A stretch of 31,189 bases of DNA from a virus. Of the stretch, positions 5,260 to 16,196 are shown one piece after another (the stretch's first letter is position 1; the number at the start of each line of letters is the position of its first letter). Where the stretch lies: positions 1 through 31,189 of the IMG/VR virus record IMGVR_UViG_3300043219_000052. One strand, written 5' to 3'. The position numbers and the translations under genes are program-made. The notes below the pieces were generated by a model. That model did not search any database. It was not told the origin of the DNA and saw only the letters and a program-made list of their open reading frames with translations.

Positions 5260-5694
5260 ATGACTTGGAGAGAAGAAGCGAAAGAACTTGGCGTACCGTT
5301 GTACGACCATAAATTAAAACGGATTAGAAAGAAAATTGATGTACTTCGTGACATTGAAATGAAGAAGATAGATGCACCGAGCGAACCGGAAAATGTAATT
5401 CTTGAAGTCAGGGAAGCAAATAAAATATGCAGGCAGGCTTTGCTCAACTATGTTACAGAAATGGGATTTAAAGATGTTTCCATTGAGGGATGTATAGAGA
5501 CATCTATTAGAAAAGGAAGGTTTTTAAATTGTAAGCGTAGAGGTATTGTATTTAGAGGAATGAAAGATGGCAACGAAACAGACAACAGCAGAACAGATAA
5601 AACAGAAACAGGCGAAAGCGAAGGAACTAGCCCAGACGTTTCAGGCAGTGTTCGAGAGTCCGAACGGGAAAGTAGTCCTGAAGGAACTGAGTAA
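5260..5694 (+). CDS. hypothetical protein whose 3' end is overprinted by the next gene
   Basis: The 144-aa product begins MTWREEAKELGVPLYDHK, a basic helical domain to about residue 100 with no recognised function. The last 42 residues are hydrophilic and Ser/Glu/Thr/Gly-rich, likely disordered. They are encoded by the same 128 bases that encode, in another frame, the start of the Bbp19-like gene. The ATG follows the portal stop by two bases with weak upstream purines. Codon content outside the overlap looks like that of the neighbours. The C-terminal tail may simply have grown into the neighbour. Confidence 0.65.
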   Translation: MTWREEAKELGVPLYDHKLKRIRKKIDVLRDIEMKKIDAPSEPENVILEVREANKICRQALLNYVTEMGFKDVSIEGCIETSIRKGRFLNCKRRGIVFRGMKDGNETDNSRTDKTETGESEGTSPDVSGSVRESERESSPEGTE

Positions 5695-5839
5695 AATGTG
5701 TTACGAAAATGAACCTACATTTGTCGATCAGAACCCTACCGGGTCAGCCTATAAAGAAGGTCGGCGTAGTATCATGATCGGGATAAGAAAACAAATAAAT
5801 AAAACATTTGAATCTAAACAGGAAAGTGCAGAACTATGA
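5567..5839 (+). CDS. Bbp19-like small virion-module protein, 90 aa
   Basis: The core (FQAVFESPNGKVVLKELSK, then SAYKEGRRSIMIGIRK) matches the pattern of the small Bbp19-type family: F-x-x-(L/V)-F-x-(S/T)-x-(D/N)-G-x-x-V-L, followed by A-x-x-E-G-(Q/R)-R-(S/A)-(V/I). These proteins lie between portal and scaffold/capsid genes in BPP-1-like podoviruses; their exact role is unsettled. A strong AGAGGAA (5554-5560) six bases before ATG 5567 fixes the start inside the preceding ORF. Its TGA overlaps the scaffold ATG (ATGA). Confidence 0.75.
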   Translation: MATKQTTAEQIKQKQAKAKELAQTFQAVFESPNGKVVLKELSKMCYENEPTFVDQNPTGSAYKEGRRSIMIGIRKQINKTFESKQESAEL

Positions 5840-6702
5840 GTGAAGAAGTAACTACCGAAACGACCACTGAAACACCAGTGACACCCGCACCGGCAGTAGT
5901 AGAAACTCCGCAGTCATTTACTGACAGCGAGGGGAATTTTACTAAGGGATGGGAAACAGCCTACTTAACAGAAGACCAGAGAGCGAACGCTAGAGTTACA
6001 GGTGGAAGAGTAACAAGCGTACAGAATCTGCTTGATACCGTAATAAACTCTGACAAGATGATTAGCGGCGACAAGATTCTTAAGCCATCAGAGAGCTTCG
6101 GTGATGAAGACTGGGACGCCTTCCACACAGCGGGCGGATGGACAAATGAAGCTATACCGATGCTTGCTCCAGAAGGCTTACCGGATGGTATATGGAACGA
6201 TGATAGAGCTACTTCTTTCTCTGAGGTATTTAATAAGCTCAGGCTTACTCCAGACCAGCAGGCAGGTATTGTCGAAGCATACAACGCTGACATACTCCAG
6301 CAGGTTACAGATAACAATAATAACACAGAGACTTCCAGTGCGGATACTAAGGCACAGTTGTTAGCTGAAAAGGGCAATGCTTATGAGCAGTTCATGCACA
6401 ATGGCAACTTTGCTGTTGAAAAGGGCATGGATGATCAAGATCACAAACAGAGAGTAATAGATAAGTTCGGCAAAGACCCCGACTTTATTCGGCTGATGGG
6501 CAATCTTGGCAGTGACTTTAACGAGTCTGGTGCTATATCGGCAGCGGCGATGGATAATACGCCAGCAGATTTACAGACACAGATAAACGGTTTAATGAAT
6601 TCGGAATCGTTTATGAAGCCAATGCACCCGGAACATAAGGCGACAATGGCAACTATAGCAAGATTACACGAAGAAAAAGCAAAGATAGCAGTACCTGCAT
6701 AG
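5836..6702 (+). CDS. scaffolding / capsid assembly protein
   Basis: Scaffolds fill and shape the procapsid and leave before DNA is packaged. This 288-aa product is acidic, starts with a Thr/Glu/Pro/Ala-rich disordered segment (residues 1-30), continues with FTKGWETAYLTEDQRANA, and ends in a helical region (MKPMHPEHKATMATIARLHEEKAKI). That layout, and the position directly before the major capsid gene, match podoviral scaffold proteins. There is no protease motif. Translation starts in an ATGA overlap. Confidence 0.8.
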   Translation: MSEEVTTETTTETPVTPAPAVVETPQSFTDSEGNFTKGWETAYLTEDQRANARVTGGRVTSVQNLLDTVINSDKMISGDKILKPSESFGDEDWDAFHTAGGWTNEAIPMLAPEGLPDGIWNDDRATSFSEVFNKLRLTPDQQAGIVEAYNADILQQVTDNNNNTETSSADTKAQLLAEKGNAYEQFMHNGNFAVEKGMDDQDHKQRVIDKFGKDPDFIRLMGNLGSDFNESGAISAAAMDNTPADLQTQINGLMNSESFMKPMHPEHKATMATIARLHEEKAKIAVPA

Positions 6703-6843
6703 CAGGCGTGTTTGTGGGATACCCCAGAAATGGACCCCAAGCATGGTAGTGTTTCTACCCGCTTAACGGCGTAAGTAGAGAAGACCCAATAGGATACCCT
6801 TCTCGATTAAATGTAAATTAAATCTAATCAGAAGGAAATTATT
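6703..6843 (+). promoter_or_regulatory. leader of the major capsid gene with small hairpins
   Basis: This is the longest gap in the head module. It holds TGGG-ATAC-CCCA (6715-6726). A second hairpin pairs TCTAC (6754-6758) with GTAGA (6775-6779) around an inner CCG/CGG pair. An A/T-rich stretch (about 6808-6832) ends in AAGGA seven bases before the capsid ATG. No good sigma70 promoter or U-tract terminator is evident. mRNA processing, stability or a phage-specific promoter are possibilities. Confidence 0.35.
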
Positions 6844-7815
6844 ATGGGTAGAGCATTAGGCGCTCCGATACCAACAGGTTTTATCGATAACTTCGATAAC
6901 ACACTGTACCATCTGCTTCAGCAGAAGGACTCAAAGTTTCAACAGGCGGTTGACATCAAACCTATTACAAACGCAGAGGACAAAGCGTTCGATGCGATAG
7001 GCAAACTGGCGTTAGTCGAGAAAACAGAACGTAACCCCAAGACTCCGATTACAGATACCACGCACGAAAGGCGTTGGGTTAATACGACCCCATTCCATCA
7101 AGGTGTACTGATCGACAGAGACGATGACCTTAACAGGATTATCGAACCTACGTCTGACATTATGACCGAGTTGGTCAATGCAGTAAACCGCAAAAAGGAT
7201 GACATAATCCTTGCCTCTATTGATGCCGATGTAGTTCAAGGTAGAACGTCAAAGACTGGTGCTGTAATATCATGGGCATCTCAGGACGGTAACGTGCAGT
7301 ACACCGGTAGAAACACAGGACGTACTATTATTTACAACAGCGCAGTCGGTAATGCAAATGCCGCTGATACAGGCTTGACAGTCGAAAAGGCTGAACTTGT
7401 TCGTGAGTATTTCGCAAACAACGATGCTGACGAAAGTACGCCTATCTGGGGTGCTATCAGTCCTCGTCAAGCAACCAACCTATTCGGTCAGGAAGAGTAT
7501 GTCAACAACGATTACAGTAATGGCAAACCTCTTACCACCGGCCGCATCATTATGGGATGGCATGGTATTAACTGGATTGTATCGACCAAGATCGTTGCTG
7601 GAACTAATAACGACACGGCCTCTAGTTCGGTTGATGTAGTTCGTTGTCCGTTCTGGTTGCAAAGTGGTTTGATTCTTGGTGTTCAGGATATGATCTCTAC
7701 GGAGATTAGTATCCGGTCAGACCTGTCATACTCTAAGCAGATTTATGTTCACATGAATATGGGTGGCATGAGACGTGACGAAGATCGAGTTGTATACGTA
7801 GAAACGATAGAGTAA
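6844..7815 (+). CDS. major capsid protein
   Basis: This protein forms the icosahedral shell. At 323 aa, starting MGRALGAPIPTGFIDNFDN, it has the early RRWVNTTPFHQGVLIDRDDDLNRI segment and the late VVRCPFWLQSGLILGVQDM plus SYSKQIYVHMNMGGMRRDEDRV end. These are typical of the podoviral capsid family that follows a separate scaffold gene; an HK97-type fold is expected from the family. AAGGA seven bases before the ATG with a TATTATG context predicts strong expression. It stands alone between two structured gaps. Confidence 0.88.
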   Translation: MGRALGAPIPTGFIDNFDNTLYHLLQQKDSKFQQAVDIKPITNAEDKAFDAIGKLALVEKTERNPKTPITDTTHERRWVNTTPFHQGVLIDRDDDLNRIIEPTSDIMTELVNAVNRKKDDIILASIDADVVQGRTSKTGAVISWASQDGNVQYTGRNTGRTIIYNSAVGNANAADTGLTVEKAELVREYFANNDADESTPIWGAISPRQATNLFGQEEYVNNDYSNGKPLTTGRIIMGWHGINWIVSTKIVAGTNNDTASSSVDVVRCPFWLQSGLILGVQDMISTEISIRSDLSYSKQIYVHMNMGGMRRDEDRVVYVETIE

Positions 7816-7876
7816 ATACTAACAGGGCGGCGGTTAATTAGTATGCCGGTTAAGCCCTAAATTTTAAGGAACTATT
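7816..7876 (+). promoter_or_regulatory. hairpin-bearing gap after the capsid gene
   Basis: Two overlapping pairings are possible: ATACTAA (7816-7822) with TTAGTAT (7838-7844), or AGGGC (7824-7828) with GCCCT (7854-7858). They exclude one another. Only a short T run follows, so it is a poor intrinsic terminator; a 3'-end stabiliser or partial attenuator is more likely. AAGGA before ATG 7877 follows. Confidence 0.3.
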
Positions 7877-8671
7877 ATGAGTTATTCAAATTACAATCAC
7901 GAACATAGAAGGTCTATCAATTGTGAGCCTTCTCAAATTACAGCCGATTCCAACCTCTGGACACCAACAGTCGATCAGAAGGCCATGCTTGGCATGATCT
8001 ATGAGACTGACCAAGGCGACAGATACAAATACTGCAAGAACAACACAACCGCACTTGCAAAGGCATTGCTAGTGGCAGCCGAGGCAAATGACTCAGCTCA
8101 GTTGGCTAAGATCCAGACCAACGCCGGTGCGTCAGCAGGAGATACCTCATTTACAGTTGAAGTTGCAACTGGGAGCGGTATCGTAGACGACGAACTTATT
8201 GATGGATATATACTCATCAATGACGGTGGCGATGCTATGGGCGACCTTTACATAGTCAAGTCAAATAAGTATACAACTACTGATACGTTTATGCGTGTTG
8301 AGATTGCAGATGCGGGAGGTTTGCGTAATGCAATCCTCGTAACAGACGATGTAACCATCATCAAGAACCAGTGCAACGGCGTTATTGTTAAGCCACAGGC
8401 TTTGACTTCGCCGGTACTTGGAGCAACGACCACAATTATCCCTGCGAGTTACTACTTCTGGGCTAAGGTCAAAGGTGTTGCGGCAGTTCTTGTTGATAAT
8501 GGCGACACGCTTGTTGTAGGCGAACCTGCTGGTCATCCGGGAACATCTGGCGTTGATGGCACAATAGGTGTCGTAGCTAACGATGGAACCGACCCGGTAT
8601 ATGGTACGGTTATATACATCTCGGCTGCCGACGAAGCTGCGTTAATTAACCTTCAGATAACTGGAATGTAG
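7877..8671 (+). CDS. putative head decoration / structural protein, 264 aa
   Basis: It lies directly after the major capsid gene with a strong AAGGA site and a TATTATG start. Residues 1-70 (MSYSNYNHEHRRSINCEPS and following, with KAMLGMIYETDQGDRYKYCK) form a conserved-looking N-terminal part. The rest is beta-rich with Gly/Asp/Thr turns (SAGDTSFTVEVATGSGIVDDEL, DGYILINDGGDAMGDLY) and no membrane helix. Similar proteins accompany this capsid type in environmental phages. A decoration or cement role is inferred from position only. Confidence 0.65.
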   Translation: MSYSNYNHEHRRSINCEPSQITADSNLWTPTVDQKAMLGMIYETDQGDRYKYCKNNTTALAKALLVAAEANDSAQLAKIQTNAGASAGDTSFTVEVATGSGIVDDELIDGYILINDGGDAMGDLYIVKSNKYTTTDTFMRVEIADAGGLRNAILVTDDVTIIKNQCNGVIVKPQALTSPVLGATTTIIPASYYFWAKVKGVAAVLVDNGDTLVVGEPAGHPGTSGVDGTIGVVANDGTDPVYGTVIYISAADEAALINLQITGM

Positions 8672-8686
8672 AAAGGAAGTGCTATT

Positions 8687-9250
8687 ATGACTAAAATTGC
8701 TTCTGACACTAATAACCAGGGTGCATTTACCGGAGATAGAGACGGTACGGCACAAGATGATAATATTAAAGCAGCACTTGATATTATTGTTGACAATCAA
8801 AATGGCGCCGGAGACCTCCTTGTAGGGCAGGTTTATTCTCTGTCTAAAGAAGCCGTATGTACTGGCGCTACCGACGACCTGTTCACGGTCGCTGGCGGTG
8901 AGATTGAGATTATCTCGTTCTTCGGGCAGGTAACTACGATCATAGCTGGCACACCCGGTAACGTGAGTATAAATGTAAACGCTACCGAAGGTGCTACGCA
9001 TGACTTAGATTTCACTGCGGTCGTGGCTCTTGCTGATAACTTGTTTGGTGACGTCATTAAGTTTGACGCACTAAGTGGCGGCGAAAACACAGCCGAAGCT
9101 ACAGTCAATACTGGAGCTGGTATTCCTTTGAGTTGGTTCTGTCCCGCAGGTGTTATTGAGCAAACACTCTCAAGCACAGGCACTGGTAATGTAACATGGT
9201 TCATGAGCTTCAGACCTCTTGTAGCCGGTGTTACAGTAGTAGTTAGTTAA
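8687..9250 (+). CDS. putative virion structural protein, 187 aa
   Basis: An AAGGA site and a CTATTATG start match the neighbouring capsid genes, so expression is probably similar. The protein is beta-rich and low in Lys, with repeated short strands (EIEIISFFGQVTTIIAG, NVSINVNATEGATHDLDF) and a hydrophobic end (VAGVTVVVS). There are no enzymatic motifs. Size and composition fit a head-fibre, decoration or neck protein. It ends just before a GC-rich hairpin (9258-9279). Confidence 0.65.
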   Translation: MTKIASDTNNQGAFTGDRDGTAQDDNIKAALDIIVDNQNGAGDLLVGQVYSLSKEAVCTGATDDLFTVAGGEIEIISFFGQVTTIIAGTPGNVSINVNATEGATHDLDFTAVVALADNLFGDVIKFDALSGGENTAEATVNTGAGIPLSWFCPAGVIEQTLSSTGTGNVTWFMSFRPLVAGVTVVVS

Positions 9251-9257
9251 TTTTAAC

Positions 9258-9279
9258 GGGGCGGCGTAAAACCCGCCCC
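9258..9279 (+). terminator. GC-rich hairpin between structural genes
   Basis: GGGGCGG (9258-9264) pairs perfectly with CCGCCCC (9273-9279) over the 8-nt loop CGTAAAAC. The following bases (ATATCTTAAGG) lack a proper U tract, so it is at best a partial terminator. It may protect the 3' end of the abundant upstream message or tune expression between head and tail genes. Confidence 0.45.
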
Positions 9280-9298
9280 ATATCTTAAGGAATATATT

Positions 9299-9691
9299 AT
9301 GGCTGACGGCGACCAAACAATCGTTAAAACCAGCGATACAAGAGCAAAGGTGAATAACACACCAAAACAAGATGTGTGGGAATTGGTTGTTACGACTGTG
9401 TTTGATGCTGACGACACAACTATTGTGACGTTACCGATTCCGCTAAATGGGATATTGCGACACGTTACAGTGACGTTGCCGCTTACGACTACCACCGGAA
9501 CAACTTCGCAGATTCTCATAAAAGATAATGGAGATAACACGGTCTTTGATACAGGCGAAATAGCAGAAGAAGCTACGCATAATTTCGTAACTGATATTCC
9601 GCTATCTGGTACAATTGATGTTAGCTTAGAACCGTCTGCTGCATCTGGCGATGCTGTAACGACAAGTACGATTACTTTACGAGGCATCTAA
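9299..9691 (+). CDS. putative structural protein, 130 aa
   Basis: AAGGA seven bases before a TATTATG start places it with the strongly expressed virion genes. The sequence alternates Thr/Val/Ile strands (WELVVTTVFDADDTTIVTLPIP, RHVTVTLPLTTTTGTTSQI) and looks like a single small beta-sandwich. Its last base is shared with the start of the LamG-like gene (TAATG), suggesting that the two work as partners. The exact role is unknown. Confidence 0.65.
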   Translation: MADGDQTIVKTSDTRAKVNNTPKQDVWELVVTTVFDADDTTIVTLPIPLNGILRHVTVTLPLTTTTGTTSQILIKDNGDNTVFDTGEIAEEATHNFVTDIPLSGTIDVSLEPSAASGDAVTTSTITLRGI

Positions 9692-10275
9692 TGAAAGAGA
9701 AATACAGACATCCTCAATTCAGTACAAAAGGGCTTGTGGCTTATTATAAGCTATGGGCTGGCTCATTTGATGGTACGAACGTATTCGACTATGCACAGAA
9801 CGGATTTGTAGGCGTACCAGCCAATCTTAACACGGAGGCCTACCCCGGCTTTGCGTTTAACGGAACTGACGACCAGATAGACTTTCCATCTGGCCCAACC
9901 AGTGTATCAACAATCGTGATATGGATTAAGGCAAATGGTGCAACATTAGAGGAACTTATAGACCTTAACCAGACTGATTATATGGAGATAAGCACAGGCG
10001 ATGTGACATCGGATGGATTTGCAGGCGGAACAGTCGTTATATATGTCGATGCAGTGGCAGGTACTGGAATAGATACTGACTGGCACATGGTGACACTTAC
10101 TGATACGGTAGGTAAAGATGCCAGTGCGGGATTTATGACATTAGGCGTTACAGTGTCAGGAGCAGCTCCACTCGACGGCAAGATCGGCGAGGTCATGCTA
10201 TTCGATAGAGTCTTATCCCCTGCCGAGGTAAAGAGTTTGTACGAGTTAAGCAAATGGAGGTATCCAAGTAACTAA
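9691..10275 (+). CDS. LamG / concanavalin-like jellyroll protein, 194 aa
   Basis: The pattern is typical of a laminin-G/concanavalin A-like domain: GLVAYYKLWAGSFDGTNVFDYAQNG near the start, FNGTDDQIDFP, a WIKANG strand, DTDWHMVTLT, and a terminal GKIGEVMLFDRVLSPAEVK helix hook. Such domains bind glycans and appear in phage fibres and head appendages. One domain fills the whole protein, so it is probably an accessory binding protein displayed on the particle. The start is coupled to the previous gene (TAATG). Confidence 0.75.
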   Translation: MKEKYRHPQFSTKGLVAYYKLWAGSFDGTNVFDYAQNGFVGVPANLNTEAYPGFAFNGTDDQIDFPSGPTSVSTIVIWIKANGATLEELIDLNQTDYMEISTGDVTSDGFAGGTVVIYVDAVAGTGIDTDWHMVTLTDTVGKDASAGFMTLGVTVSGAAPLDGKIGEVMLFDRVLSPAEVKSLYELSKWRYPSN

Positions 10276-10276
10276 T

Positions 10277-10546
10277 ATGGCTAATTCAAATACTTCAATC
10301 TGTAATCAGGCGTTAGGCGTAATAGGAGCAAATTCCATTGAGGACTTAGACACTGATACGTCAGTGCAGGCGATACAATGCAGACTTCATTTCGAGGCCG
10401 ATAGAGACGCCCTTATAAGGTCTCACTATTGGCGGTTTGCTTCAGGTAGGGCCGAACTAGTACAGGATACGACAGTCAGTTCATCCTGCCTAGTGACTTT
10501 ATGCGTTTCAAATCGCTATTCGTTGATAATCTATCGCCAAGCTTGA
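10277..10546 (+). CDS. tail adaptor (T7 gp11-like), N-terminal fragment
   Basis: In T7-like phages this protein forms the ring joining portal to tail. The N-terminus (SICNQALGVIGANSIEDLD, then FEADRDALIRSHYWRFASGRAEL) matches the family pattern of an early helix pair and a conserved R(D/A)(A/E)L..HxWxFA...RA.L. After RAEL (about 10459) the frame diverges into unrelated residues and stops at 10546. The family sequence resumes in another frame as GYDSQFILPSDFMRF. Roughly seven to nine residues expected between RAEL and GYD are missing, so a small deletion with a frame change is likeliest. The tail of this ORF is spurious. Confidence 0.6.
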   Translation: MANSNTSICNQALGVIGANSIEDLDTDTSVQAIQCRLHFEADRDALIRSHYWRFASGRAELVQDTTVSSSCLVTLCVSNRYSLIIYRQA

Positions 10547-10881
10547 CTACTCGTATTACGATTGCTATTGAAGGTCAAAGGCTTCTTACTAACGAAACAG
10601 CAATAAATATGAGGTATATCAAAGAGGTCACAGACCCGACAGAGTTTGACCCATTGTTCGTTAAACTTCTTGTATACACCTTAGCTGATGACCTTATAGG
10701 TCCATTGGCAGGTGGAGACAAAGGAATTCAAAAGAAGATAGACGGCAAGATGAATAAGTTAATGCCACAAGTAAGAGCTTTGGATAGACAAGAGACGAAC
10801 AACATTGGCAGAGATGCTCATATTCCGTGGACAGAAGTAAGGGTCAGCGGTGGGGCATCATGGAGGCAAGATCGTGTCTAA
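10501..10881 (+). CDS. tail adaptor (T7 gp11-like), C-terminal fragment
   Basis: This is the remainder of the adaptor: IAIEGQRLLTNETAINMRYI, then VTDPTEFDPLFVKLLVYTLADDL, followed by a long helix. That is the usual C-terminal half of gp11-type adaptors. The reading frame is open back to 10450, and homology begins at about 10465 (GYDSQF), before the first ATG (10501). The ATG is therefore probably an internal Met, not a start; it has no ribosome binding site. No slippery heptamer is visible, so a programmed shift is unlikely. An adaptor is essential for tailed particles, so an assembly or sequencing error, or a defective genome, must be considered. Confidence 0.6.
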   Translation: MRFKSLFVDNLSPSLTTRITIAIEGQRLLTNETAINMRYIKEVTDPTEFDPLFVKLLVYTLADDLIGPLAGGDKGIQKKIDGKMNKLMPQVRALDRQETNNIGRDAHIPWTEVRVSGGASWRQDRV

Positions 10882-11284
10882 TGAAATCTATATGACATAC
10901 GATGAAGGCAATACGCTATACGCTTTAATATGGCGTAAGACTGACGACAAGGTGTGGAACAATACCGATTCGCAGTTTGATACATATACTGATGTAGACA
11001 TAGATAAGTACGACCTGCTGCTAATCAATCAGGCTGACAGTGATTACTACTCTGTAGATTTTCCATCTGCGATCACGACAGAGGGCATTTACCGTGTTCA
11101 GGTAATGCTTCAACCGGGTTCAATAGATGCTGATGCTGACTTTGGAATTGCACAGGGCGAGATAAACTGGAACGGCGAAAGTGAAGACACATTGATTTCG
11201 CTATCTATTCAGATGGATATACTGTCTGCGCAGGGCAGTAGAGTATTGAATAAATATCCAACAAGGAGTCAACCAGATGTCTAA
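10874..11284 (+). CDS. tail-associated structural protein, 136 aa (GTG start)
   Basis: A GTG at 10874 with GGAGG at 10862-10866, seven bases away, is a better start than the ATG at 10850 in the same frame. It overlaps the adaptor stop by 8 nt. The sequence (MTYDEGNTLYALIWRKTDDKVWN, DIDKYDLLLINQADSDYYSVDFP, GIYRVQVMLQPGSIDADADFGIAQGEINWNG) follows a pattern seen in many phage tail or baseplate accessory proteins: G-x-TLYALI(R/W)RK-x-D-x-KVW, a YSVDFP-type motif, and a final WNG. It is probably a small beta-rich virion protein. Its precise position in the tail is unknown. Confidence 0.65.
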   Translation: MSNEIYMTYDEGNTLYALIWRKTDDKVWNNTDSQFDTYTDVDIDKYDLLLINQADSDYYSVDFPSAITTEGIYRVQVMLQPGSIDADADFGIAQGEINWNGESEDTLISLSIQMDILSAQGSRVLNKYPTRSQPDV

Positions 11285-11453
11285 TAATGGAATAATACGT
11301 TTTAATGGCGGCGAGGCTACACCACTGATAGATGTTAGAGTTGACATTGAGAAGTACGATGGGCTTTGCAGGAAGATGGAAAACTTCTTTCCTAGGATAT
11401 ACGGCCCAGCAGAACGTAGAACTGGAACAAGATTCATAAAGGAAGCAAAATGA
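11277..11453 (+). CDS. tail stator/hub protein, N-terminal fragment (58 aa)
   Basis: The sequence (IIRFNGGEATPLIDVRVD, KYDGLCRKMENFFPRIYGPAERRTGTRFI) is the hallmark N-terminus of the podoviral tail tubular B/stator-like family: F-x-GGE-x-(S/T)P-x-x-x-x-RVD-x-x-(K/R)Y, then C(R)x-x-EN, then GPA-x-RR-x-GTRF. That family is normally one protein of about 650-850 aa. Here it stops after KEAK. The expected next segment (TVRMMPFVFSSSIAYPVEFG) is found from 13809, in the same codon phase, as the interior of the 1133-aa ORF. About 2.36 kb separates the two. A good AAGGAG lies upstream, and the stop overlaps the next ATG. Confidence 0.75.
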   Translation: MSNNGIIRFNGGEATPLIDVRVDIEKYDGLCRKMENFFPRIYGPAERRTGTRFIKEAK

Positions 11454-11602
11454 AGATAAGAATTGGTGACAAACTAGTAGAGGCCGATGCCTCTGGAAAA
11501 ATTAAAGCAACAGTAGAAGAGATACCGAACCAAAGTGGCGGTACTGATGTTGTTGTTCATATCCCCTGCCTGACAATACAGGCAAAGAAAGTAGAGGTAT
11601 AA
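11450..11602 (+). CDS. hypothetical 50-aa protein
   Basis: It starts in an ATGA overlap with the stop of the stator fragment. The product (MKIRIGDKLVEADASGKIKA and onwards, ending TIQAKKVEV) looks like a tiny beta-sheet protein with one Cys. It is the first gene of the segment that separates the two stator pieces. Such tiny proteins occur among tail genes of other phages, but I do not recognise a named family. Confidence 0.6.
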   Translation: MKIRIGDKLVEADASGKIKATVEEIPNQSGGTDVVVHIPCLTIQAKKVEV

Positions 11603-11655
11603 CATGGCTTACTTTAAAGGTAAGTCTCCTAATTCCTATTTCTAAGTACAAGGAA

Positions 11656-11871
11656 ATGCAAAAAAAACAAGGCGGTGTTTGTGCAATATGCGAAAAAAAA
11701 GAAACACGAAAATATAAAGGCAAAATTATAAGATTGTCGATTGATCATAATCATAAAACAGGTGAAATTCGTGGATTGTTGTGTCACGGTTGCAATGTTG
11801 GAATTGGACACTTCAGTGACAGTATAGAATTTCTATTAAAAGCAATAAACTATTTAAGAGCAAAGGAGTAG
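11656..11871 (+). CDS. HNH endonuclease, recombination endonuclease VII-like, 71 aa
   Basis: Zinc ligands are at Cys9/Cys12 (GGVCAICEKK) and Cys43/Cys46 (LLCHGCN). The catalytic signature is LSIDHNHKTGEIRGLLC followed by NVGIGHF, with Asp30-His31, Asn47 and His52. This is the pattern of endonuclease VII-type HNH proteins, which nick DNA and in phages often act as free-standing homing enzymes. AAGG lies too close to the ATG for ideal initiation, and the frame is open upstream (YKEMQKKQGG fits the family), so the N-terminus may be truncated or frameshifted. A 13-codon ORF with GAGG (11604-11645) precedes it in another frame. The region is A-rich, with two A8 runs, unlike its neighbours, consistent with foreign origin. 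Confidence 0.78.
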   Translation: MQKKQGGVCAICEKKETRKYKGKIIRLSIDHNHKTGEIRGLLCHGCNVGIGHFSDSIEFLLKAINYLRAKE

Positions 11872-11874
11872 ATA

Positions 11875-12276
11875 ATGGCCTCAGGCATCTACAATCGTTT
11901 CAAGGCGAATTTAATGAACAAAGTAGTGGATTTAGAAGCAGACACTATCAAAATCTCACTGTACGACAATAGTCATAGCTTCACTGCGACAGACACTGAC
12001 TATACCACCAGTAACGAACTGGCTACTACTGGCGGTTATACGCAAGGTGGCAATACGTTGGCGAACTCAGCGGTAACAGAAGCGGCTACTACTAAGTGGG
12101 ACGCTGATGACACTGAGTGGACTACAGCAACGTTTACTGCGTACCATGCAGTAATTTGGGACTCAACCGCTGGTAATGATCTAATAGCTTCCATTGATTT
12201 TGGTGGTGCAAAGACTGTTGCGGCTGGCACGTTTGCTATCCAGTTCGATTCGTCTGGAATTATAACCCTAGCATAA
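11875..12276 (+). CDS. putative virion structural protein, 133 aa
   Basis: The N-terminal pattern (MASGIYNRFKANLMNKVVDL, DTIKISLYDNSHSFTATDTDY) resembles a widespread small phage structural protein: short helix, then D-x-IK(V/I)(A/S)L(Y/V)D and Thr/Asp-rich strands, ending in an FDSSGIITLA-type strand. The AAGGAG before ATG is strong. It lies within the cassette between the endonuclease and the next virion gene. It is probably a particle-surface or tail accessory protein; no catalytic residues are seen. Confidence 0.65.
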   Translation: MASGIYNRFKANLMNKVVDLEADTIKISLYDNSHSFTATDTDYTTSNELATTGGYTQGGNTLANSAVTEAATTKWDADDTEWTTATFTAYHAVIWDSTAGNDLIASIDFGGAKTVAAGTFAIQFDSSGIITLA

Positions 12277-12286
12277 GGAGTCTATT

Positions 12287-12778
12287 ATGGCTACTAAACC
12301 AACTCCCGGTGCATCTGATGGTACGTATGGAACAGAGATGAATGCGTTTCTTGATATATCGCTTGATGTTAATGGGTTTGTAATAAACGAAGCATTGCAG
12401 ACTACGTCTGCTGCTCCAGTCGCAGACGCAGCCTTGGCTAATAAGAAATATGTTGATGACAGAGTAATAGCTGATGTGGCCTTTATATGTAAGGCTTTTG
12501 GTAATATTACCCATCCAAACACAGTTTCAGGAGGTAGCCAAAATATATCAGGAGTAGTAGATACGGCTACGGATGGCGAGTATATTATTAGCTGGGATAC
12601 CAATTTTGCTTCTGCTGATTATGTAATTGGAGTAACTCCAATAGACAGTAATGCAAGAATTTTCAGGATAACAGCTAAAGCGGCTGGAAGTGTTACACTC
12701 CAATTTTCAACCGCCGGAACTACGCCTACGGATGTGGACGTTGATGCTTTTGACATAACAGCATTCGGATCACAATAG
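12287..12778 (+). CDS. tail-fibre-like small structural protein, 163 aa
   Basis: It starts MATKPTPGASDGTYGTEMNAFLD. The motif APVADAALANKKYVDDRV (about residues 43-60) is typical of phage tail fibre or collar proteins before a short coiled coil. The C-terminal 100 residues form a beta domain (VDTATDGEYIISWDTNFASADYV, then NARIFRITAK) that could be a tip or receptor-binding head. AAGGA with a TATTATG start matches the capsid-region genes, suggesting strong late expression. A small trimeric appendage is likely, but inferred. Confidence 0.7.
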   Translation: MATKPTPGASDGTYGTEMNAFLDISLDVNGFVINEALQTTSAAPVADAALANKKYVDDRVIADVAFICKAFGNITHPNTVSGGSQNISGVVDTATDGEYIISWDTNFASADYVIGVTPIDSNARIFRITAKAAGSVTLQFSTAGTTPTDVDVDAFDITAFGSQ

Positions 12779-12794
12779 GAGCATGTTGATATAA

Positions 12795-15700
12795 ATGGCA
12801 CATATATTTGATACTAATTTAAGATTTTCCGGCAGTTCTCAGCCGCTTGATAGCAACTACACAGCAGGTAGTGGAACTACGTTACTTGTCCTTGGTATCG
12901 TTACTGCCGGTTCAGAGCAGCGAAATGGTCGCGCGCCAACTCTTGACAATAAAGTTTTTGTCCAAGCAGACCAGACTAGACAGCACGGTACGAATCCTGA
13001 AATAAGTTGTGAACTATGGTATTTCTTAGAGCCTGAAACTGGTTCTGTAATTAACATAAGTATCCCAAACCCAAACTCTTTAGTTCTTCATGCACAAGTG
13101 TCTACATATAAGGCGTCTAGTGGATTCACCAGCGACATAGACGTTGCTGGTGGTAGCTCTGGAATATCTGCAAGCCCAACTGTGCAATTGACCCCTACAG
13201 AAGATGGTTCAGTCATAGTGGGAGTGTTTGGCGACGGCGAAGACTTCACTCCCACCGGACGGACAGGTATCGAATTAAACACTACCGACAATGGGCTTTA
13301 TTCAGACAGCAATCAATACACGCTACAATCAACGGCGGCTCCAATAAATACAGGGTGGACGACTCAGACCTATGGGGCTGGCGTTTATGGAGGTGGAGTT
13401 TATAACGGTGACGATGACTGGTGCATGTGCGTAGCCTCCTTCAAAGAAACGAATATTAACGTAACAATAGAACCCACCACACAGACGTTATCGTTAAGTA
13501 TTTTACCGCCATCTATTGGAGTAGATGACGACGTTACTGTGATACCTAGTTCAATCAATTTAAGTGCGACGCTTAATGCTCCAGGCATTTCAATAAGCAA
13601 AACTACATCGACTACGGCACAAGCTTTGGCACTTACTCTCCCCTCTCCGACAGTTTCAATATCTGTTACCGTTCAGCTATCTGCATTGTCGTTATCTGCT
13701 ACCTTGACAGTTAATTCTATTCAAATAGAACAAGACGTAACCGTAGGTACGCAAGTATTTGCTATCAGTGCAACGTTAGAACAACCAAACTCATTAGCCC
13801 CGTTGCCGACTGTACGAATGATGCCTTTTGTATTTTCTTCAAGCATAGCCTATCCGGTAGAGTTTGGGGAGGAATACGCTAGATTCTATTTCGATGGAGA
13901 ACCTTTACTTGGGGACTCTGAGGTTCATGTAGAAATAGCAACTCCGTACCAGTCTGTTGATTTACTTCAATTACAAACGGACCAAAGCGCAGATGTTATG
14001 TGGATAGTCCACCCGTCTTACCCACCTGCCAAGCTAAGCAGAACAACGCCGACAACTTTCACGCTGGAAGATATTGTATTCAATAGAGGCCCATTCATAA
14101 AAAGAAACGACCTTGCTAATAACGATGGTGTTACTATGGATGTGGATACGACAGGTGCTGGCGAGGCTGGTACACTGACTAGTTCGTCAAGTATATTCCA
14201 AGACGGTCATATTGGTGCATTGTTTGAGCTTACCCATCCCCGTATTAATCGTCAGACAAACGGGACGAAAGAGGGAACTGATACTGGAATCATAGGCGAA
14301 ACGATAGAAGTTCTTGGCGATTATACTTTCTCCATAACAACGTCTGGTTGGGTAGGTACTGTTAAGCTTCAAAGAAGTACAGACAATTTCGCAACTAGTA
14401 CAGATATTAGGACTTTTACAAGCGGCACACAGACATTCAGCGACACTGAAACCACAGAAGATGTGCAATATCGCATAAACGTGACTGCCCATACCTCCGG
14501 TAAGATTTCCTCAAGCTTGCTTGTAAATACTAATTCAGTGCAAGGCGAAGCTACGAGTATTGGTGTTATAAAAACACCTATAGATATTAAGGGGAGCTTC
14601 AACTTTAATACTCAGGGTAACTGGGGTGCTACGATAGTGCTTGAAAGAAATGAAAACGATTCTGGCTGGGAACCTTTTAGGACGTATAACTCAAAAATAG
14701 TAAATGAGGTCGGCAGTAGAAACATACAGTTTGAGGGTATCGAAGACGCTGATAATGTCAGATACCGTATGAACGTAACGTCGTATACTGACGGAACCGT
14801 GAGTGCTGATCTCGCGGCTACCTCAAGCACGCAGTCTGGTATCGTGCGTATTAACGGGATACAGTCTGGGCTTAAGGCCGACATTACCGTTGTGTCTGAG
14901 GTTAGTCAAACAACAAAAACAAAGCGATGGGCAGAAGGCTCATGGTCTACCTTGCGGGGATTCCCAAGTGCTATTACATTCTTTGAAGAAAGGGCGGTTT
15001 ATGGGTTTACTGATTCTGACCAGCAGACTTTCTGGCTAAGCGAGACGGATGCGTTTGAGGATTTCGCTGCTGGCACAAAAGACGCAGACTCATTTGCTCT
15101 TAAGTTACCCACTGCTAATAGAGGAAGATGGCTGAATTCGCTCGGTACGCTTGCCGCCGGGACTACAGGGAGCGAATGGCGAATAGGTTTATCGCTTGAT
15201 GACCAGGCATTAACTCCTAGTAATTGGAGCATGAAAGAACAGACAGCTTACGGCAGTTCGGATATGCAGTCTATAAAGTTTGGTTCTGTAATCTTATTCG
15301 TTGATTTTGTTGGCAGGAAGGTAAGAGAGTTTACTTTCAGGGAAGCAGACCAGAAATATGTAGCCCCAGACCTTACTGCACTTGCAGAGCATATTACAGT
15401 GTCTGGTATAGTCTCTGTCGCGCATCAGAAAAACCCAGATTCAATTTTGTGGTGTGTGCTTGATAATGGTAATCTAGTTACATTGAGTTACGAGCGAAAT
15501 CAGAATGTTGTTTCATGGTCGAATATGCCTATGGACGGTCTGGTTCAATCAGTAATGGTAATCCCGTCCACTCTAGAAGACGAAGTATGGATTTCAATAG
15601 TACGCGCCGTTGATGGCGAGAACATGGTTTATATAGAACAGTTCCAGCCAAGGATTCTTGATATTAGAAAAGAAAATGCTTTCTTTGTTGATAGTGGGAT

Positions 15701-16196
15701 TATATACCAAGGGCAAGCTACAAATGTCGTAACCGGACTAGGACATCTTGAAAGTAAGGTAGTAAAGATTCTAGCTGATGGTGAAGTTATTAACGATCAG
15801 CGTGTCATCAACGGGCGGATACAACTAACTACTCAGGCATTTAACGTGAGAGTAGGTCTTGGATATGACTCGAAACTGACTCCAATGCGGATGGATGTTA
15901 ATACTAGTTCCGGCACTACACATGGAAGCATCAAGCAGACAACCGAGATGGTGGTAAGTTTCATGGATACTGTCGGTGCTAAATATGGCAAGGATGATTC
16001 TAGTTTGTTTGACATTGACTTTAATAGGGCTGGACTAAAGAACACCAGTAAAGTTGAGGGATTATTTACGGGAGACGTAACCGTTCCATTTGCAGGTGGG
16101 TTTGATATTGACGACTCAATGGTTATATCTCAGTCAGACCCTCTACCATGTATAGTCAGAGCAATAGTGCCAAGAGTTAATAAGACAGGACGATAA
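12795..16196 (+). CDS. chimeric tail stator protein with foreign N-terminal virion domain, 1133 aa
   Basis: Residues 1-215 (GSGTTLLVLGIVTAGSEQRNG ... CMCVASFKE) form a beta domain known as a stand-alone phage virion protein. Residues 220-335 carry about five short beta repeats (TLSLSILPPSI, NLSATLNAPGISI, ALTLPSPTVSI, LSLSATLTVNSIQI, FAISATLEQP). From Thr339 (TVRMMPFVFSSSIAYPVEFG, then FYFDGEPLLG, QSADVMWIVHPSYPPAKLSR) the sequence is the podoviral tail tubular B/stator-like family, missing its first 58 residues. Two Ig/FnIII-like inserts (about 490-680) precede the beta-propeller-like part (WAEGSWSTLRGFPSAITFFEERAV, GTTGSEWRIG). A poorly spaced AGGAG precedes the ATG. The fusion could be real or an evolving pseudogene pair. 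Confidence 0.78.
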   Translation: MAHIFDTNLRFSGSSQPLDSNYTAGSGTTLLVLGIVTAGSEQRNGRAPTLDNKVFVQADQTRQHGTNPEISCELWYFLEPETGSVINISIPNPNSLVLHAQVSTYKASSGFTSDIDVAGGSSGISASPTVQLTPTEDGSVIVGVFGDGEDFTPTGRTGIELNTTDNGLYSDSNQYTLQSTAAPINTGWTTQTYGAGVYGGGVYNGDDDWCMCVASFKETNINVTIEPTTQTLSLSILPPSIGVDDDVTVIPSSINLSATLNAPGISISKTTSTTAQALALTLPSPTVSISVTVQLSALSLSATLTVNSIQIEQDVTVGTQVFAISATLEQPNSLAPLPTVRMMPFVFSSSIAYPVEFGEEYARFYFDGEPLLGDSEVHVEIATPYQSVDLLQLQTDQSADVMWIVHPSYPPAKLSRTTPTTFTLEDIVFNRGPFIKRNDLANNDGVTMDVDTTGAGEAGTLTSSSSIFQDGHIGALFELTHPRINRQTNGTKEGTDTGIIGETIEVLGDYTFSITTSGWVGTVKLQRSTDNFATSTDIRTFTSGTQTFSDTETTEDVQYRINVTAHTSGKISSSLLVNTNSVQGEATSIGVIKTPIDIKGSFNFNTQGNWGATIVLERNENDSGWEPFRTYNSKIVNEVGSRNIQFEGIEDADNVRYRMNVTSYTDGTVSADLAATSSTQSGIVRINGIQSGLKADITVVSEVSQTTKTKRWAEGSWSTLRGFPSAITFFEERAVYGFTDSDQQTFWLSETDAFEDFAAGTKDADSFALKLPTANRGRWLNSLGTLAAGTTGSEWRIGLSLDDQALTPSNWSMKEQTAYGSSDMQSIKFGSVILFVDFVGRKVREFTFREADQKYVAPDLTALAEHITVSGIVSVAHQKNPDSILWCVLDNGNLVTLSYERNQNVVSWSNMPMDGLVQSVMVIPSTLEDEVWISIVRAVDGENMVYIEQFQPRILDIRKENAFFVDSGIIYQGQATNVVTGLGHLESKVVKILADGEVINDQRVINGRIQLTTQAFNVRVGLGYDSKLTPMRMDVNTSSGTTHGSIKQTTEMVVSFMDTVGAKYGKDDSSLFDIDFNRAGLKNTSKVEGLFTGDVTVPFAGGFDIDDSMVISQSDPLPCIVRAIVPRVNKTGR

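Follow-up and report, generated by a model that had tools for sequence, protein, structure and literature searches.

The nozzle gene pieces and the genes between them

The window analysed here, the whole 31,189-nucleotide stretch of the IMG/VR virus record IMGVR_UViG_3300043219_000052, comes from a family of uncultured short-tailed phages. It carries in two pieces the gene that encodes the tail nozzle, a tube through which DNA passes into the host. The upstream piece, N58 (11277–11453, plus strand), encodes a 58-residue N-terminal nozzle segment that stands apart, is preceded by an AAGGAG ribosome-binding-like sequence and is present in one copy in the whole record. The rest of the nozzle, referred to here as the body (13809–16196, plus strand), corresponds to residues 339–1133 of an ORF of 1133 amino acids (12795–16196). 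In PHROG profile searches, N58 matched positions 11–60 of phrog_376 ('tail protein'; E = 4.6e-13) and window positions 13809–16193 matched positions 66–709 (E = 9.5e-154). As these stretches of phrog_376 adjoin, N58 and the body are neighbouring parts of one protein, as an earlier note on this DNA had proposed; together they cover the family over its full length, with no gap where they adjoin. Among solved structures, the best relative is the 'Tail Nozzle' of Carin-1 (PDB 8ck1), which matches the body (E = 1.7e-94) and, through its residues 17–65, also N58. Judged from these matches, the gene product is a tail nozzle or tail tubular B protein of the T7 gp12/Carin-1 type, a better name than the 'stator' used previously. 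Both breakpoints fall on codon borders in the window.

The nozzle is preceded by an adaptor gene (phrog_394, as identified in the copy of the near-identical contig L006) and, farther upstream, by terminase, portal and capsid genes; the order adaptor then nozzle is also found in epsilon15 and Carin-1. The window copy of the adaptor (tail tubular A) gene is disrupted at 10467, where 22 nt flanked by direct repeats (ATACGAC) have been lost; the deletion is either a minority variant or an assembly fault, and the L006 copy is intact (208 amino acids).

The first gene of the cassette that separates the two pieces is a 50-aa ORF (11450–11602, plus strand), which overlaps N58 through ATGA; it is kept across the clade of relatives described below, is under purifying selection and has no family match in PHROG or Pfam. 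Beyond the HNH insert lies the gene for a 133-aa virion-type protein (11875–12276, plus strand; phrog_644, E = 4e-20), conserved in the clade and with a weak likeness, under the cut-off, to podophage GP4 fibre I (PF23140, E = 0.036). It is followed by a 163-aa fibre-like protein (12287–12778, plus strand; phrog_3484 tail fiber, E = 0.00024), the N-terminal part of which is conserved in the clade. The last element, NTD (12795–13808, plus strand), consists of a foreign N-terminal domain and a linker and runs in frame into the nozzle body as a single fused ORF. The domain itself is β-rich and comprises about 220 amino acids, and the linker (residues 219–336) has a pLDDT below 50. NTD is conserved in the clade and absent from 21 records of intact or differently split relatives. 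Its 338-aa region has no PHROG match and no Pfam match above the cut-off, and a tblastn comparison with cultured phages gave no match; a fold search of the fused model hardly probed it, the rows being filled by nozzle and propeller. NTD further appears, either on its own or attached to other repeat proteins, in contigs of unrelated phages with no nozzle nearby (L060:8001-10427, L063:8001-11087 and L064:8001-8660).

The HNH insert (272 nt; 11603–11874, plus strand) contains an EndoVII-type core (ORF 11656–11871; PF02945, E = 1e-21) and separates the 50-aa from the 133-aa ORF, away from both breakpoints; in ten relatives with the same split this gap measures 1–57 nt and holds no endonuclease. 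The core spans just the C-terminal part of its families (positions 77–139 of 142 in phrog_2633), and an upstream ATG at 11605 (MAYFKGKSPNSYF) lies in a different frame from the 71-aa HNH core; for both reasons, this endonuclease may have suffered a frameshift and be in decay. L006 ends 8 bases short of where the HNH region of the window starts, which would fit presence/absence variation of this element without proving it. Elsewhere, L010 carries a 179-aa HNH_3 endonuclease between the 133-aa and fibre-like genes (L010:5817-6356), and a 56% identical copy of this gene occupies the same place in L053 (L053:6668-7439). The gaps of the cassette seem to draw endonucleases.

Relatives sharing the split and other cuts in the nozzle family

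Scans of IMG/VR with N58, the 50-aa ORF and NTD revealed the same arrangement in other genomes. The contig L006, from another metagenome, is 99.6% identical to the window, equalling positions 5472–11597 bar one 22-nt gap, and repeats the 5′ break, including the stop codon of N58 and the following gene almost in full. L002, whose body is 79% identical, displays N58, the 50-aa, 133-aa and fibre-like genes and a fused ORF of 1131 amino acids in the same order, with no endonuclease. At least ten further IMG/VR contigs have the order N58, 50-aa, 133-aa, fibre-like gene and foreign domain fused to the nozzle body, the split of the window being shared by L002, L010, L011, L012/L013, L052, L053, L054, L057, L059, L075 and L097; the scans also returned the partial contig L089. 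The view of the earlier note that a block of virion genes interrupts an essential tail gene is supported. N58 sits immediately upstream in every clade member, and the operon-like order is the same throughout; the N58-to-50-aa junction is an ATGA overlap in six genomes and a separation of a few bases in the rest, and the NTD-to-body junction runs in frame through ...LAPL(P/D)xVRMMPF..., giving complete fused ORFs of 1096–1135 amino acids. In L054 (3072-5776) the body stops at 818 amino acids and continues in another frame, reflecting either a sequencing error or another break.

One N58 and one body each are found in the window, L002, L011, L013, L052, L053, L075 and L097, and no intact nozzle copy was detected in these eight whole records, which are fragments or possibly incomplete. 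A single intact nozzle gene is present in L003/L004 and in the cultured relatives, among them Carin-1, epsilon15, Vibrio phage 1.182.O and Piluca. A scan of genome contigs with the N58 profile yielded no prophage relatives. The refuting case named in the earlier note, in which the 58-aa ORF would be an independent gene in close relatives and the family would naturally lack this N-terminus, applies by half: the ORF is indeed an independent gene in close relatives, but intact relatives carry this N-terminus, and the ORF is therefore a fission product. The common codon phase of the two pieces was likewise confirmed in the window (1518 nt from start to start) but not in the relatives (1325 nt in L002, 1187 nt in L011, 1342 nt in L013 and 1271 nt in L052), and since the phase varies it is uninformative.

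Among nozzle genes with enough sequence in a first sample, N58 lay inside the body ORF in 64 and apart from it in 14, with both states in one. A second sample comprised 78 loci fetched by body sequence, and because 70 of these were uncut, fission is, as far as the sampled sequences indicate, concentrated in one part of the nozzle family. In a tree built by a quick method, the nine split bodies of the window kind formed one fully supported clade, and the split label had to change four times, starred branches forcing three of these changes. The tree thus points to at least three independent changes of split state at this same loop.

The composition of the split loci also varies outside the window clade. 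In L069, L085, L109 and L127 the body starts at its own ATG, a further sign of independent splitting at this loop. L061 and L062 each have two versions of N58, one plain and one joined to a laminin-G-like domain (PF13385, E = 6.7e-11), as well as the 133-aa gene and a shorter form of NTD. This NTD is fused to the body in L061, and the L062 contig ends within it. L069 and L109 have, besides a plain N58, one that is joined to different sequence (in L109, GLUG repeats), and L085 and L127 combine two decorated N58 copies with a free body. Because some second copies of N58 bear lectin-like or GLUG domains, the ends freed by the cut may serve as points where domains are mounted. In L114 (3670-5160), the nozzle gene is intact and is accompanied by a second N58 that carries an InlB-repeat-like domain, possibly a stage between the intact and the split state.

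Other loops are cut as well. A cut near residues 440–450 (L004 numbering) was found in L067, L072, L073, L122, L123 and L126, being clean in L126, and cuts farther down occur in L124, L102/L104, L106 and L167, in part accompanied by C-terminal pieces that are duplicated and attached to foreign proteins.

Selection and predicted structure

Between the window and L002, dN amounts to 0.130 for N58 and 0.131 for the body. Synonymous sites are near saturation and usable ratios come from the closest pairs only; for the closest pair, L011–L013, dN/dS is 0.12 for N58 and 0.11 for the body. Judged by these rates, both halves are under equal purifying selection and N58 is no decaying remnant. The conserved nozzle motifs are kept in N58, the end of which is the family's own sequence.

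The model of the intact nozzle of L004 (pLDDT 89.3, pTM 0.82) displays the nozzle fold with a central β-propeller and superposes on 8ck1 with a Z-score of 43.1 and an r.m.s.d. of 3.8 over 683 residues, and on T7 gp12 with a Z-score of about 28. Strands are formed by residues 50–55 and 64–69 of L004, and the cut lies inside the loop between them (56–63). Unrelated propellers align to L004 from residue 34–47 or so to residue 660, and judged from these alignment ranges, the final N58 strands are probably part of the first propeller blade. The fused window protein, modelled without N58, gave a weak model (pLDDT 62.4, with 18 rows against 31 for the intact relative), in which the body still aligns to residues 67–829 of 8ck1 (Z = 15.6).

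Fission of the nozzle gene, alternative explanations and known systems

The arrangement probably reflects a genuine fission of the tail-nozzle gene that is ancient and has become fixed. One ancestral nozzle coding sequence is cut in the loop after approximately residue 58; the 50-aa, 133-aa and fibre-like ORFs and the NTD gene lie in the cut, the last of them fused in frame to the body, and selection conserves both pieces across the clade. N58 and the fused body would be made as two chains and reunited non-covalently in the hexameric nozzle, with N58 probably contributing strands of the first blade in trans. The freed loop ends would carry the added domains: NTD on the new N-terminus of the body in the window clade and, in other clades, a lectin-like, GLUG-repeat or other domain on a second N58 copy.

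It is unlikely that N58 has instead left the nozzle to become a small protein with another role, the fused body working without it. Its status as an ORF of its own and the second N58 copies on unrelated domains would suit such a departure, but N58 retains the nozzle motifs and the rate of change of the body, is always found directly upstream and is missing from no split genome in which the region is present. A causal role of a homing endonuclease, which would have inserted itself and its neighbouring genes into the nozzle gene before being lost from most relatives, is decidedly improbable. HNH genes do reside in the cassettes of the window, L010 and L053, and an HNH insertion is known to have split nrdA in phage Aeh1 (PMC2988022); however, in no member does an HNH gene lie at either breakpoint, the types and gaps differ between the window and L010/L053, and most members have none. 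The endonuclease-linked insertion envisaged in the earlier note is thus not sustained and, on sequence evidence, the window HNH gene is a later insertion, a hitch-hiker outside the split itself.

Rejoining of the pieces by RNA splicing, an intein or ribosome bypass is very improbable. The codon-border breakpoints and the completeness of the family sequence would be expected of it, and the earlier note had surmised that precise removal could restore the frame. Nevertheless, an Rfam scan of the window returned no family at the gathering threshold, and thus no group I or group II intron RNA, and no Hint-type or intein domain was matched by Pfam in the pieces or the cassette ORFs. The inner ORFs are conserved genes, the distance and phase between the pieces vary, further loops are cut in relatives, and complete relatives keep a foreign domain in frame with the body, which would be unneeded under splicing. 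Least probable of all, to a vanishing degree, is an assembly chimera: the window has one local anomaly, the deletion in the adaptor gene, but the 5′ break recurs in the 99.6% identical contig from another metagenome and both junctions recur in diverged relatives.

A fission of the nozzle gene sets the locus apart from the known nozzles examined. T7 gp12, Carin-1 gp36 (PDB 8ck1), epsilon15 gp12 and phrog_376 represent the same family over its full length; they fold like the intact relative and share with the window the gene order adaptor, nozzle and acetyltransferase-like protein. Those examined are one chain from one gene, whereas here the family sequence lies in two pieces, with N58 apart and the body bearing a foreign N-terminal domain. 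Phage genes in pieces are exemplified by Aeh1 nrdA, split by mobE, by gene 43A/43B and by T4 genes 60/39 (PMC2988022). The likeness lies in a phage coding sequence that is stably cut, its pieces being translated apart and having to reassemble, as would be the case here. However, those systems are replication enzymes, mostly cut by endonucleases, whereas the nozzle is a multimeric part of the virion with a cassette of virion genes in the cut, a secondary endonuclease and several loops cut; compared with Aeh1 nrdA, selection acts on both pieces but no endonuclease is located at the break. Modular receptor-binding proteins such as tailspikes and fibres resemble the N58::LamG and N58::GLUG fusions in joining a short anchor to exchangeable distal domains, but the anchor here is a segment of the nozzle itself. 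The papers searched, largely from outside the subscription journals, describe no split nozzle, nor one whose pieces are decorated. Split phage enzymes being already known, what appears to be new is a split, and repeatedly re-split, virion nozzle.

More tentatively, and with considerable doubt, the cut nozzle might be viewed as a mounting system, in which N58 acts in trans, plain and decorated copies could be mixed among the six slots of one virion (candidates being L061/L062, L069 and L109) and further slots are available at other loops. Such a system could have arisen by duplication of the 5′ end, as in L114, and subsequent loss of the nozzle's own N-terminus, and would allow receptor-binding domains to be hung on the nozzle with its core unchanged. 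The stable splitting of an essential multimeric virion part has arisen independently several times, at loops that recur, and the newly formed ends bear receptor-binding-like domains; this suggests a route by which tail proteins acquire domains. It also offers natural split points for the study of two-chain β-propeller assembly, and gene callers are prone to miss or misname the nozzle genes of such phages.
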